Source of the DNA: Chthoniobacterales bacterium
GTDB lineage: Bacteria > Verrucomicrobiota > Verrucomicrobiia > Chthoniobacterales > JACTMZ01
Assembly: GCA_018402585.1 (NCBI GenBank)
Contig: JAGYIO010000002.1
Coordinates: forward strand, 160,406-224,405
Reading direction: 5' to 3'
Length of the DNA: 64,000 nucleotides
Under the pieces are notes generated by a model. It was not told the DNA's origin. It made no database searches and worked only from the letters and a program-made list of their open reading frames with translations. The translations under genes and the position numbers were made by a program. This document shows positions 34,110 to 44,502 of the stretch, in pieces (positions within the stretch are counted from its first letter, which is position 1; every line of letters begins with the position of its first letter).

Positions 34110-35679
<1,570 letters not shown>

Positions 35680-35778
35680 CAAGACTGTCCGGTTTACCGG
35701 ACATTCAGGTCGACGATTAACTCGGAATGCAGTTTATTCCGATATTTCGTGGTCACGTGAAAACGTGGACCACCTGGT

Positions 35779-35807
35779 GACGAATAACCCACAACTCAGT
35801 TTTTGTG
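35779..35807 (+). other. 3' arm of the 16S RNase III processing stem
   Basis: GACGAATAACCCACAA pairs with the leader arm at 33958-33986 (one bulged A). It lies about 110 nt after the 16S 3' end and 45 nt before tRNA-Ala. Confidence 0.72.
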
Positions 35808-35851
35808 CCCTGCCCTCTAAAAAAGCCCGATCCGGGCAAATTATTTTTCCC

Positions 35852-35924
35852 GGGGGCATAGCTCAGTTGGTAGAGCGCCAGCTTTGCAAGCTGGATGTCA
35901 GGGGTTCGAATCCCCTTGCCTCCA
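35852..35924 (+). tRNA. tRNA-Ala (TGC)
   Basis: 73-nt cloverleaf: acceptor GGGGGCA/TGCCTCC (one G-U), D-arm AGCTCAGTTGGTAGAGC, anticodon loop CTTTGCAAG with anticodon TGC, T-arm GGGGTTCGAATCCCC, discriminator A, CCA not encoded beyond it. First tRNA of the rRNA spacer. Its last 16 nt are repeated 79 bp downstream. Confidence 0.97.
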
Positions 35925-36003
35925 AGCGAAGCGAGGAGGCCTCGTATCTAATGCGAAGCCTAACCAGGAAAGATCGCCATGGCGATCAATCCCCTTGCCT
36001 CCA
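35909..36003. repeat. 79-bp insertion flanked by a 16-bp repeat of the tRNA-Ala 3' end
   Basis: AATCCCCTTGCCTCCA occurs at 35909-35924 (inside tRNA-Ala) and again at 35988-36003. Between them lie a small hairpin CGAGG-AGG-CCTCG and a perfect 16-bp palindrome GATCGCCATGGCGATC (35972-35987) that abuts the second repeat. The second copy is only a tail, not a tRNA gene. This looks like the footprint of an insertion at the tRNA 3' end. Confidence 0.8.
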
Positions 36004-36009
36004 TGTGGA

Positions 36010-36099
36010 GTTTTAAGTTTGTAAGAATTAAGTTTTAAGGGAAAGCGGCACTTCTCGTGCGGTGTCTCTTAAAACTTACAAACTTAAGCTCTTAAAACT
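36010..36099. repeat. A/T-rich long inverted repeat between the spacer tRNAs
   Basis: AAGTTTGTAAG (36015-36025) pairs perfectly with CTTACAAACTT (36075-36085). GTTTTAAG/CTTAAAAC pairs exist both inside and outside it, and a GCAC-TTCTC-GTGC hairpin sits at the top (36048-36060). It would fold into one long stem in the precursor RNA between tRNA-Ala and tRNA-Ile. Confidence 0.7.
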
Positions 36100-36105
36100 T
36101 TTCTT

Positions 36106-36179
36106 GGGCCTGTAGCTCAGTTGGTTAGAGCATGCGCTTGATAAGCGCAGGGTCACTGGTTCGAGCCCAGTCAGGCCCA
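36106..36179 (+). tRNA. tRNA-Ile (GAT)
   Basis: 74-nt cloverleaf: acceptor GGGCCTG/CAGGCCC, D-arm AGCTCAGTTGGTTAGAGC, anticodon loop CTTGATAAG with anticodon GAT, T-arm CTGGTTCGAGCCCAG, discriminator A. Second spacer tRNA, so the order is Ala then Ile, the reverse of E. coli. Confidence 0.97.
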
Positions 36180-36243
36180 CGCCTGGCCGGCCGGAGCATG
36201 GACAGCACGAAACAACACTTTCAGACGTCGGGATGGACGTCGA

Positions 36244-36256
36244 CGTTCTTTGACAT
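36244..36256 (+). promoter_or_regulatory. boxA-like site before 23S
   Basis: CGTTCTTTGACAT matches the core of the Bacillus spacer boxA (TTCTTTGAAA) with one difference. It directly precedes the 23S processing stem. Confidence 0.5.
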
Positions 36257-36267
36257 CTGCATAGAGG
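36253..36267 (+). other. 5' arm of the 23S RNase III processing stem
   Basis: ACATCTGCATAGAGG is perfectly complementary over 15 bp to CCTCTATGCAGATGT at 39291-39305. After a 5-nt bulge the stem continues with CACAAC/GTTGTG. The arms bracket the 23S gene. Confidence 0.85.
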
Positions 36268-36355
36268 GTAAACACAACTTCAAAGAGAGTTAGAGAATCT
36301 ATAGAAATAAAGATTCAATTCATTTACGCGCGTCGCAAGACGCGGTAAGAAGATT

Positions 36356-39218
<2,863 letters not shown>

Positions 39219-39290
39219 ATTTTTTTCCTCTGAGGACCCTTCGGGGCCGCTCATGAAATTTATGACTTTACTAACCTGTTGGTAGTTGTG

Positions 39291-39305
39291 CCTCTATGCA
39301 GATGT
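39291..39305 (+). other. 3' arm of the 23S RNase III processing stem
   Basis: CCTCTATGCAGATGT, perfect 15-bp complement of 36253-36267; GTTGTG just before it extends the stem. Confidence 0.85.
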
Positions 39306-39332
39306 GAAGGAACACGACGTTTGTCGCGGTTC

Positions 39333-39343
39333 TTCTTTGAAAT
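39333..39343 (+). promoter_or_regulatory. boxA-like site before 5S
   Basis: TTCTTTGAAAT, third boxA-like copy, 80 bp upstream of 5S. Confidence 0.45.
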
Positions 39344-39423
39344 TTTGGTAACGATTGGATCGTTAGAACTTGATTCGTTTGGAGGGCGGCCATCCCTGGC
39401 CGTCGCTTCCCGAGCGGCTCAAA

Positions 39424-39540
39424 TTCTGGTGATCATAGCGCAGTGGACCCACCCGTTCCCATCCCGAACACGGAAGTGAAACGCTGCAGCCCCGATGGTA
39501 GTGCTCCTCTAGGTTGCGCGAGAGTAGGACGTTGCCAGAA
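39424..39540 (+). rRNA. rrf: 5S ribosomal RNA
   Basis: About 117 nt. Terminal stem TTCTGG/CCAGAA, with the conserved CACCCGTTCCCATCCCGAAC and GAGAGTAGG segments. Last gene of the rRNA operon, followed immediately by the terminator. Confidence 0.96.
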
Positions 39541-39578: not shown

Positions 39579-39582
39579 ATTT

Positions 39583-39640
39583 GTGGCACGGGCATCCTGC
39601 CCGCGATGTTCTGAGTCCATGGGCCAGATGCCCAGACCAC
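39583..39640. repeat. Double-hairpin palindromic repeat (copy C)
   Basis: Outer GTGG/CCAC, hairpin 1 CGGGCA-TCC-TGCCCG, hairpin 2 TGGGC-CAGAT-GCCCA. Starts four bases after the rRNA terminator T tract. The adjoining sequence to about 39740 holds another partial hairpin (GGCGACA-GCC-TGTCCGCC, one bulge) next to the IS110 element. Confidence 0.75.
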
Positions 39641-39759
39641 ATGCTTTCACCGTAGATGACGCAGAGATCGCCGAGAACCTGTAGCGGCGACAGCCTGTCC
39701 GCCCGTGTGCGGATCCTCATCGCCGGTCGTTTTCCGAAAAAGTAGAAGCAACTGTGTTG

Positions 39760-40920
<1,161 letters not shown>

Positions 40921-41060
40921 GAACAGACAAGCGGCATCCTTGCCGCGCAACCCCAACGATAAGCGCCAGGGCCGGATTCTCACCAGGCATGCAAGTTGGA
41001 CGCCCACGTCGGACTGCTTTTGCCGTGCTCAGTCGCCCCATATCGGCGACGGTTCACCTC

Positions 41061-41615
41061 ATGAAATTCCCGCTCCACACCAAAGATTCCGCCCCGGAAG
41101 AATCCAAACCCTTGCTCGCGCAGGTCGAGGCCGCTTTTGGCTTTGTGCCCAACCTTACGGCCACGCTGGCCGAATCCCCCGCGGCCTTGTCCGGATACCT
41201 GCAGCTCAGCAGCGCGATTGAGCAGCATGCCGCGTTGAGTCCGCAGCAACAACAGATTGTCATGCTCGCGATCAGTGAGGCGAACGGTTGCGATTACTGC
41301 ATGGCCGCACACAGCCTCATCGCCGGTATGGCTCAGGTGCCGGCGGAAACGGTGGCTACCCTTCGCCAGTGCGGGGATTTGACCGATCCCACAGAAGCGG
41401 CCCTGGGCAAGTTTGCCCGCGGCGTCATCGAACACCGCGGGTGGGTTCCGGAAGGCGATCAAGAGGCGTTCCTCGCCGCCGGCTTCACGCGGCGCCAATT
41501 ACTCGATGTCATCGCGCTCGCGGCTCTCAAAACGTTGAGCAACTACGCCAATCATCTGGCCCACACGCCGCTCGACCCCGCCTTCGAGGGGCATCGTTGG
41601 ACCAAATCACGCTGA
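41061..41615 (+). CDS. Carboxymuconolactone decarboxylase / AhpD-like protein
   Basis: 184 aa from ATG 41061. The AhpD-type signature is present: ISEANGCDYCMAAHSLIAG, with the CxxC redox pair and the following His. The N-terminal half has the helical FGFVPNLTATLAESPAALSGYL of peroxidase-related CMD proteins. Probably an alkylhydroperoxidase-like reductase; true decarboxylase function is unlikely given the CxxC. The next gene (DoxX-like) follows after 17 bp. Confidence 0.9.
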   Translation: MKFPLHTKDSAPEESKPLLAQVEAAFGFVPNLTATLAESPAALSGYLQLSSAIEQHAALSPQQQQIVMLAISEANGCDYCMAAHSLIAGMAQVPAETVATLRQCGDLTDPTEAALGKFARGVIEHRGWVPEGDQEAFLAAGFTRRQLLDVIALAALKTLSNYANHLAHTPLDPAFEGHRWTKSR

Positions 41616-41632
41616 CCCCCCGCCCGGGAAGC

Positions 41633-42109
41633 ATGCTCGCCAAATTCACCGCCACCACGGCCCCCGCCACCGTGGTGCTCATCCGCCTCATGGTTGGCGG
41701 CATTTTCTTGTCCGAAGGAATCCAGAAATTCCTCTATCCCGTCGAGTTGGCCGCCGGTCGCTTTGCCAAGATTGGCCTTCCTTGGCCCGAGGTGATGGGG
41801 CCCTTTGTCGGTGGCGTCGAAGTTGTCTGCGGCTTGCTCGTCTTGTTCGGCTTCCTGACCCGCCTGGCCGTTGTGCCGCTCATCATCACGATGTGTGTCG
41901 CCTTGATTTCCATCAAAGTTCCAATCCTGCTCGGCCAAGAGTTCCTCGGCTTTACGCTCCGTCCGCTCCCGCGTTACGGCTTCTGGAGCATGATGCACGA
42001 ATCGCGTAACGACCTCTGCATGCTGCTCGGTTCGATTTTCCTACTGGTTGTGGGAGCAGGAAGGTTGTCGCTCGATCACGTGCTCTCCCGGCCGGATCGC
42101 CAACACTGA
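41633..42109 (+). CDS. DoxX-family membrane protein
   Basis: 158 aa with four hydrophobic segments: VVLIRLMVGGIFLSEGIQKFLYP, GPFVGGVEVVCGLLVLFGFLTRLAVVPLIITMCVALI and DLCMLLGSIFLLVVGAG. DoxX/DoxD-like small inner-membrane proteins are often linked to thiol redox or oxidative stress, matching the AhpD-like neighbour. Start ATG 41633. Confidence 0.86.
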   Translation: MLAKFTATTAPATVVLIRLMVGGIFLSEGIQKFLYPVELAAGRFAKIGLPWPEVMGPFVGGVEVVCGLLVLFGFLTRLAVVPLIITMCVALISIKVPILLGQEFLGFTLRPLPRYGFWSMMHESRNDLCMLLGSIFLLVVGAGRLSLDHVLSRPDRQH

Positions 42110-42279
42110 CTTTTCTGCTGGACGTCCTGCGCAGATAGCGGCAAGCCTCACATTTGTTATGCCTGGGGTGGACCCCGTTTTCGAACCAGCAGGAGCGTAA
42201 AATAAGCTCTGGAATGCGGGAGTGATTGGGACTTTATGGGTGGGTTTTTGAGGGATCAACCTCCGATTGGAAAGGGGTT

Positions 42280-42372
42280 CCGATTTTTTTGCTCTGGAGC
42301 GCATGGCTCGGTCGGCCTCGGAGCGTAGCGCAGAGGCCGGCCGGGCCGGGAGCGGAAGAGCAAAAAAATCGG
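42280..42372. repeat. Long hairpin inside the IS3 element
   Basis: A perfect 16-bp inverted repeat CCGATTTTTTTGCTCT (42280-42295) / AGAGCAAAAAAATCGG (42357-42372) encloses a second GC-rich stem (GGTCGGCCTC / GAGGCCGGCC). Located downstream of orfB; it could act as a terminator in either direction because each arm has seven T or A. Confidence 0.75.
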
Positions 42373-42406
42373 GCGGCGGAGGGAGGGAGGTTTGCCGCGA
42401 TAGGTT

Positions 42407-43282
42407 TCATGCGGCGTCTTTCATCCCAGTTCCCGGGGTGGTCGGCTTTCGCTTCCTCTCGTACACCTCGGCCGGAGTTTTGTTGCCGAGATTTTGATGC
42501 GGTCTCCAAGTATTGTAGCGCTCGAACCATGGCCCGACGCCCTGCTCCAACTCTCCGAGCGTGGCGTAGTCCTTGAGGTAAATGTCCTCGTATTTGAGGC
42601 TTCGCCAAAGCCGCTCAATGAACACGTTGTCCATCCAACGCCCCTTGCCGTCCATGCTCACGGCGATCCCCAACCCTTCGAGCCTTCCCGTCCATTCCGG
42701 CGAGGTGAACTGGCTGCCTTGGTCGGTGTTGAAGATTTGCGGAAGGCCTCCGCATTGCGCCACCGCGGCCGCCAGGGCTTTTGCCGTCAGCGCCGAGTCC
42801 ATCGTATTGCTCACCGCCCACCCAAGCACCTTGCGGCTGTGCCAGTCCATCACCGCACACAGGTAGGCGTGCCCCTGCGGCATCGGGATATACGTGATGT
42901 CCGAGCACCACACCTCGTCGGCGAACTCCACCAACCGATCCCGCAGCAGATACGGATACTTCCGGTGCCCGCTGTCGGCCAAGCTCGTGCGCCGTGGCCG
43001 GCACCAGATCGTTTCGATCCCCATCTTTCGCCTCAGCCTCTGGATCCGTTTCCGGTTGGCTTTGATCCCGTAATCCCGCTCCAGCAACTCTCCCAAGCGT
43101 CGGCTGCCGATGCACGGATCCTTCAGGTAGATCTCGTCTAAAACCCGCAGAAGGCGCCTCCCCTCCGCGGGCTCCTCCACCCGGCGGTAATGCAGACTCG
43201 AGCGCGAGACCCCCAGCAGCTCGCACTGCTCCCGAACACTCAATTGTGGATGATTTTTTTCGACCAGCTCGGCACGGTTCAC
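42407..43282 (-). CDS. IS3-family transposase OrfB (DDE integrase domain)
   Basis: 291 aa. An HTH_21-type start (LSVREQCELLGVSRSSLHYRR) is followed by the rve/DDE core: WCSDITYIP (first Asp), NTDQGSQFTS (second Asp), NVFIERLWRSLKYEDIY (Glu) and the closing YNTWRPHQNLGNKTPAEVY. All three catalytic residues present. Starts at GTG 43282, overlapping the orfA TGA by 4 bp. In IS3 elements an OrfAB fusion is often made by -1 frameshifting; an A8 run near the orfA end could serve. Confidence 0.95.
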   Translation of the reverse strand: MNRAELVEKNHPQLSVREQCELLGVSRSSLHYRRVEEPAEGRRLLRVLDEIYLKDPCIGSRRLGELLERDYGIKANRKRIQRLRRKMGIETIWCRPRRTSLADSGHRKYPYLLRDRLVEFADEVWCSDITYIPMPQGHAYLCAVMDWHSRKVLGWAVSNTMDSALTAKALAAAVAQCGGLPQIFNTDQGSQFTSPEWTGRLEGLGIAVSMDGKGRWMDNVFIERLWRSLKYEDIYLKDYATLGELEQGVGPWFERYNTWRPHQNLGNKTPAEVYERKRKPTTPGTGMKDAA

Positions 43283-43572
43283 AGGCCGAGCTGTCTGGAT
43301 TTTTTTTCCAGAAAATCCAGCTTCACCGTCAACTCCCCGATCTTGGAATGCAGCCTCTCCCGCTCCCGCTCAAACTCCTCGCCCACCTCCCCCCTACCTC
43401 TCTGAAAGGCCGCCGGGAGCCCTTCCGAGAGTGTCCGTTTCCATTCCGAGACCTGCGTGGGATGAACCTCGTATTCCCCCGCAATCTGTTGGGTGGTCTT
43501 CTGTCCTTTGAGCGCTTCGAGCCCCACCCGGGCTTTGAAGGCTGTGTCGTGTCTTCTGCGTTTGGCTTTCAT
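43279..43572 (-). CDS. IS3-family OrfA (HTH protein)
   Basis: 97 aa from ATG 43572; the track ORF has 15 extra residues. Helix-turn-helix of the transposase_8/IS3 type: RHDTAFKARVGLEALKGQ, IAGEYEVHPTQVSEWKR. A leucine-zipper-like coiled coil (EEFERERERLHSKIGELTVKLDFLEKK) follows. It ends in GAA AAA AAA TCC, an A-rich slippery stretch just before its stop, suitable for programmed -1 frameshifting into orfB. Confidence 0.93.
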   Translation of the reverse strand: MKAKRRRHDTAFKARVGLEALKGQKTTQQIAGEYEVHPTQVSEWKRTLSEGLPAAFQRGRGEVGEEFERERERLHSKIGELTVKLDFLEKKSRQLGL

Positions 43573-43664
43573 TGGCAATGGTCTTTCAGGTTGTGGTTTT
43601 CCACTCCCCCAAGCCATCGCTTTTTACAGCTTACCAACTGGTCCTAATTTCGGGGTCCACCTCA

Positions 43665-44232
43665 GCCCAACCAATCCAACCCTGTCCGCAACACCCTGCT
43701 TATCGTGGGTGGAGTCCTCGGTATGCTCCTTATTTTCAGTGTTGTCCTCCGTGCTGCGCTCGCACCCCTGTATCAGGAGATGGCCCATATGCAGTCTGGT
43801 GGCGGCTCATCTGGCGGTGGGGATTCCTATTCCGGCGGCGGTGGCGGCAACAGCGGCGGTGGATCTGACGTGAACCTCGGTGGAGTCGGTGGACTGCTCA
43901 ACTGGGCCTTCGGATGGGCGTGGGGTGGCGCTGGTTGGTACAATGCCGGCCCCGGCGGTGGCTGGTGGGGTGGCAACTGGTGGCATAATTGGAACGGTTC
44001 CTGGGATCGCAACGGCAACTGGTATGATGGCAATGGCAACCGCGTTTACAGCAACGACACCTTCAACCGCACTGTGAATCGTAACTACGATAACACGCGC
44101 GTGAATCACGACGACTTCGATGGAGCCCGCGGGGATCTCCGTGGCGATCGCGATGCTTCGCGCGGAGGAGGTGGCGAGCCTTTCGGTGGAGGCGAACACT
44201 TCCACGGAGGGGGTGGCGGCGGGCGGCGCTAG
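43665..44232 (+). pseudogene. Gly/Trp/Asn-rich membrane protein gene split by IS3
   Basis: The body of the gene lies right of the IS; the ATG and first bases of codon 2 (ATGCC, 42159-42163) lie left of it. Joining them across one GCC target copy gives MPNQSNPVRNTLLIVGGVLGM.. and an uninterrupted 189-aa frame. The product has one transmembrane helix (TLLIVGGVLGMLLIFSVVLRAAL), a Gly/Ser-rich stretch, a Trp/Gly/Asn-rich segment (GGGWWGGNWWHNWNGSW) and a His/Gly tail. Family unknown. A shorter product could still start at GTG 43705, so full inactivation is not certain. Confidence 0.85.
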
Positions 44233-44339
44233 CGGTTAGCCGATGTCCATCTCAAGAGAGGCAGGGCTGGGCCCAGCCGTATGCTTCCTCAAAATTTCCC
44301 AGCCAGCGGCAAACCGACGGCCCGGGCTTGCGCAGGATG

Positions 44340-44489
44340 TTACCTCGCGAAGATCGCGCGAACGTAGTCCTTCTGCCCGATCAGCGTGCGGCTGAGATTG
44401 ACGTAACATCCGGAGAGCCGGAGCTCGGCAGAGACCAGCTCAAAGAACTTAACCACGCGAAGAAACTTGGTGGCAAAGCTCGCACCCAT
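44340..44489 (-). CDS. Possible small ORF downstream of the SDR gene
   Basis: 49 codons, too short for the track. It begins at ATG 44489, 13 bp after the SDR stop, and reads MGASFATKFLRVVKFFELV and on to ..GQKDYVRAIFAR. Protein-like composition, no low-complexity bias, but no family recognised; may be a decayed gene end. The rest of 44233-44502 contains a GGCTGGGCCCAGCC palindrome (44265-44278) and nothing else I can name. Confidence 0.3.
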   Translation of the reverse strand: MGASFATKFLRVVKFFELVSAELRLSGCYVNLSRTLIGQKDYVRAIFAR

Positions 44490-44502
44490 GAAGTCAGGCT
44501 AA

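Follow-up and report, generated by a model that had tools for sequence, protein, structure and literature searches.

An IS3-family insertion sequence splits codon 2 of an accessory Chthoniobacterales gene that encodes a small membrane protein rich in Gly and Trp

The stretch of DNA analysed here (the window, 64,000 nucleotides) comes from a genome of the order Chthoniobacterales (Verrucomicrobiota) and carries a complete rRNA operon at 34110-39540. The interval that follows, 39583-44491, contains an IS110-like gene, a pair of genes for a carboxymuconolactone decarboxylase-like protein and a DoxX-family protein, and a gene interrupted by an insertion sequence. The IS110-like transposase gene, recognised by eye, lies on the minus strand immediately after the rRNA operon (39760-40743) and is accompanied by a perfect palindrome, CCGGGGGTCATGACCCCCGG, at 40851-40870; the carboxymuconolactone decarboxylase-like gene and then the DoxX-family gene follow at 40989-42109. 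The interrupted gene together with its insert occupies 42159-44232, and its features are listed in Table 1.

Table 1. Features of the interrupted gene and of the element inserted in it (positions in the window)
Feature	Position	Strand	Basis
ATG with bases 1 and 2 of codon 2, interrupted gene	42159..42163	+	Read directly; homologues start at the equivalent place
GCC target duplication (3 bp), left copy	42161..42163		Read directly; borders fixed by full-length relatives
IS3-family insertion sequence, complete, 1,501 bp	42164..43664	-	Terminal repeats; ends of L036 and L038; NCBIfam NF033516
Terminal inverted repeat TGGGGTGGACCCCG, 3' side of transposase	42164..42177	+	Repeat match
Conserved 94-nt hairpin between orfB and the IS end, apex GGAGCGTAGCG	42280..42373	+	Covariation; fold z-scores
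orfB, DDE integrase part, 291 aa from GTG	42407..43282	-	PF00665, PF13276, NF033516
orfA, helix-turn-helix part, 112 aa	43279..43617	-	PF01527
Terminal inverted repeat TGAGGTGGACCCCG, 5' side of transposase	43651..43664	-	Repeat match
GCC target duplication (3 bp), right copy	43665..43667		Read directly
Gene remainder, last base of codon 2 to stop	43668..44232	+	Homologues in five other genomes of the order
GTG, proposed fallback start (codon 15, inside the membrane helix)	43705..43707	+	Start in none of the homologues

At the left junction the flank ends in ..TTATGCC and the element begins with TGGGGTGGACCCCG, and at the right junction the element ends in CGGGGTCCACCTCA and the flank resumes with GCCCAACCAATCC, so that GCC stands at both borders. 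The two terminal repeats are identical at 13 of 14 positions. Full-length relatives at two loci in other genomes, L036 and L038, align over element positions 1-1501 (78% and 74%) and have identical TG...CA ends, which are common to most of the other element copies examined in other genomes of the order. Because these relatives fix the borders independently, a 3-bp duplication would arise here by accident with a probability of 1/64. The borders and the duplication are thus well supported, since the relatives align from end to end and the L036 copy is itself flanked by a 3-bp duplication, CCA.

The transposase is encoded in two frames, both intact along with the catalytic motifs. The product of orfB passes the NCBIfam model NF033516 for IS3 family transposases (4.9e-79; 266 bits, cut-off 160) and matches PF00665 (rve, 5e-26) and PF13276 (HTH_21, 5e-11), with the D, D and E motifs in the stretches SDITYIP, NTDQGSQF and ERLWRSLKYE; the product of orfA matches PF01527 (HTH_Tnp_1, 6e-7). 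The stop codon of orfA overlaps the GTG of orfB, and just upstream of the overlap lies a run of eight A residues (43300-43307) at which a predicted -1 slip would yield an OrfAB protein of 403 aa. An rve/DDE transposase, a helix-turn-helix orfA with a predicted -1 frameshift into orfB, imperfect TG...CA inverted repeats and a target duplication within 3-5 bp (GCC here, CCA at L036) place the element in the IS3 family. It is present once in its own assembly. Matching DNA was found in 37 of 213 genomes of the order, the window's own included, and none of the other genomes holds a near-identical copy, the best match being 78%.

When the flanks are joined with a single GCC they read ATGCCCAACCAATCC.., an open frame of 189 codons that ends at the stop at 44232 and encodes a protein predicted to begin MPNQSNPVRNTLLIVGGVLGMLLIFSVVLRAALAPLYQ.. 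(MPNQSNPVRN; MPNQSNPVRNTLLIVGG). The sequence-only reading had stressed that the frame is restored exactly on excision. The rejoined frame is indeed open, but this is not independent evidence, because removal of an insertion sequence and one target copy always restores the original; it is the homologues that carry the proof. The encoded protein, which is of low complexity, has one membrane helix followed by a part rich in Gly, Trp and Asn, and found no family match in Pfam or NCBIfam. The gene occurs in six of the 213 genomes, counting the window's, three in this genus and three in another family. A search for uninterrupted relatives, which had been suggested as a check, found them in the two other genomes of the genus and in all three of the other family; all five start at the predicted ATG and carry the N-terminus that the window gene has lost to the insertion. 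The intact homologues have short N-termini before the membrane helix, such as MSKKSNPVRS.., MAHSSN.., MSKSS.. and MSKKA.. (MSKKSNPVRSTLMIVGG in genome G003, MAHSSNTSSGLIKTVAA in G005, MSKSSKKSSNDLLKAVGG in G016, MSKKSSSGNSLIKNIAV in G108 and MSKKAENNLLKNIAV in G110), and LRAALAPLYQ is conserved after the helix.

The G003 protein is 71% identical to the window protein over residues 2-186. Across 185 codons the two genes differ at 36, 28 and 101 first, second and third codon positions, respectively, and dN/dS ranges from about 0.12 by the NG86 method (dN 0.21, dS 1.74) to 0.33 by the YN00 method (dN 0.24, dS 0.74). These values show that purifying selection acted on the encoded protein until the element inserted. 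The left flank of the insertion may also resemble the region upstream of the G003 gene. Compared in register, they agree at 24 of 60 positions, with 15.2 expected (shuffle p about 0.01, a weak value that is the best of several lengths tried), which is suggestive only.

The neighbourhood of the gene is variable within the genus. In genomes G001 and G006, sequence homologous to the window extends to position 39581, and the homologue of the SDR region, which starts near 44492-44502 of the window, begins about 91-100 bp later with no insert between them. In G003, G004 and G007 the rRNA-to-SDR interval holds other cargo, and in the remaining genus members it holds different cargo or the sequence ends there. 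Since the interval is empty in two genomes and filled with other cargo in three, 39583-44491 is a variable insert that follows the rRNA operon, and the interrupted gene is an accessory one. It is possible that the interval between the 5S rRNA gene and the conserved SDR gene is an insertion hot spot. In G003 the Gly/Trp-rich gene comes right after the 5S gene, and about 14 kb separate it from the SDR gene. In G007 a 98-bp piece similar to the carboxymuconolactone decarboxylase-like gene adjoins the rRNA end. Among the genus members, no uninterrupted allele was found at the same locus when sought beside the conserved SDR gene, and because the immediate neighbours of the gene differ in G003 and G005, we infer the empty site from the homologues.

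With high confidence, we propose that a complete IS3-family element transposed into codon 2 of this accessory gene, duplicating GCC, and that expression of the small single-helix Gly/Trp-rich membrane protein was most likely abolished. The ends of the element, the GCC duplication, the transposase families and the intact homologues all agree with the view, put forward from the sequence alone, that an IS3-family element interrupts codon 2 of a real gene of 189 codons. The insertion cuts the gene body off from its ATG and upstream region, and a null allele is the simplest and the likely outcome. Read backwards from the gene body into the element, the frame meets a TAA at 43645, and there is no in-frame ATG, GTG or TTG between this stop and the GTG at 43705, so the element supplies no start. 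The first available starts, GTG 43705 and ATG 43723, both fall inside the membrane helix. Transcription of the transposase runs away from the interrupted gene. A search of 42050-44300 gave no sigma-70-like outward promoter; it used the sigma-70 consensus only, from which Verrucomicrobiota promoters may differ. The suggestion that outward transcription from the element or the internal GTG might still rescue the product thus found no backing.

The same observations bear on the idea of a regulated or useful switch, in which outward transcription or precise excision keeps a truncated or a full product available. Some IS3 elements do drive neighbouring genes, and precise loss of the element with one GCC would restore the frame. 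On the other hand, precise excision of IS3-family elements is rare, the element end offers neither a promoter of the type sought nor an in-frame start, and the gene is altogether absent from most members of the genus, which makes a switch improbable.

Still less probable is that the GTG at 43705 is the natural start, the element lying merely upstream of the gene and the match to ATGCC being a coincidence. An ORF of 175 aa does begin at this GTG, and a GTG also stands at the equivalent position in G003. However, none of the five homologues starts there, each having an ATG and a short N-terminus before the helix into which a start at the GTG would fall, and G005 has GTC, not a start codon, at the aligned position. 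Relatives with a natural start at this GTG, which the sequence-only reading had named as its refutation, were thus not found. The N-terminus of the G003 protein is identical in length to MPNQSNPVRNTLLIVGG and mostly identical in residues. The G003 frame stays open farther upstream, and because this upstream part spans the 5S rRNA gene with its terminator, the ATG is the sole sensible start in G003. An annotation that calls the 175-aa ORF the native gene would therefore be mistaken, as it is a truncated remnant. That the junction is an assembly artefact joining an element to an unrelated flank is hardly credible: the genome is a draft of 35 contigs and 89.6% completeness, but the element occurs once in the assembly, its two borders are precise, and on either side of it the duplication and the homologous N-terminus fit together.

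As to the age of the insertion in codon 2, the intact duplication and the intact frames of both element and target make the recent date suggested from the sequence alone plausible; the searches gave neither an empty allele nor a near-identical copy of the element by which to date it.

The one unusual part of the element is a conserved hairpin, which may merit a separate look. It was aligned with ten related sequences (window 42280-42373 with L036, L037, L038, L040-L044, L047 and L048). Across the 11 sequences 99% of the cells pair, and 15 of the 33 pairs show changes in both partners. The covariation score of 0.340 exceeds that of shuffles (0.128) and of slid partners (no more than 0.098). The fold is also far stronger than that of shuffles, with a z-score of -8.4 as DNA and -9.2 as RNA. 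The strand opposite the transposase, on which its internal loops read G-N-A, gives the stronger fold. The conserved unpaired parts are GGA/GGA, GCA/GCA and the GC-GTA-GC apex. A search of Rfam over 42160-43670 gave no match for the hairpin at E up to 1. A canonical terminator was rejected as its main reading: on either strand the T run falls in the 5' arm, and the hairpin was absent from the output of the scan.

Within the order, strong matches to the hairpin are mostly found inside or next to IS3 elements or what remains of them. One copy in G106 (L047:303-413, G106:C45), 91% identical, lies 3' of a truncated transposase that is called IS66-like from a motif seen by eye, not from a family search; the C-terminus of this transposase departs from the usual sequence after DLRMMK, and no IS3 end was seen near the copy. 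Elsewhere in the order, the apex string GGAGCGTAGCGNA occurs with 8 or more of 12 flanking bases paired at 8 of 30 fetched places, compared with 39 of 9,000 random places. These counts are a lead only, because the 30 places were not drawn at random, count the window's own copy among them and may in part be copies of one another. The hairpins capped by GGAGCGTAGCGNA have differing, unrelated stems, occur in several Chthoniobacterales genomes (loci L079, L081, L088, L090, L098, L102, L105 and others), and some adjoin transposase-like genes. A tentative and rather doubtful reading is that the hairpin is a functional module of the element, selected as single-stranded DNA or as antisense RNA via its G-N-A loops (a GGA-GC-GTA-GC-GNA apex), and that hairpins with the same apex could be a transposition-control or insulating element of different mobile elements. 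Among the titles and abstract openings of the literature, nothing specific was found on conserved hairpins in IS3 elements or on GNA-capped bacterial hairpins.

For comparison with the hairpin, REP-like palindromes and stable GCGNAGC DNA mini-hairpins offer a lead only. They share with it a long palindrome with a GC-GTA-GC apex; unlike them, the window hairpin sits inside an insertion sequence, is conserved with it and has no match in Rfam. The element itself has in common with the IS3 family (NF033516) a pair of overlapping frames, an A-rich -1 slip site, a helix-turn-helix orfA, an rve/DDE orfB, TG...CA terminal repeats and a 3-bp target duplication. It differs in having about 240 bp of non-coding DNA 3' of orfB, which hold the conserved hairpin, and the nearest full-length relative found is 78% identical. 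Apart from the hairpin, the finding is ordinary IS biology that changes no general view, and it provides a clean case of gene inactivation by an insertion sequence in which the original start codon is confirmed through relatives. As in known cases of such inactivation, the coding sequence is split near its 5' end with a target duplication. Nothing differs in principle; the target here is an uncharacterised accessory gene, and among the copies of this Chthoniobacterales family of single-helix Gly/Trp-rich proteins only that in the window is interrupted.
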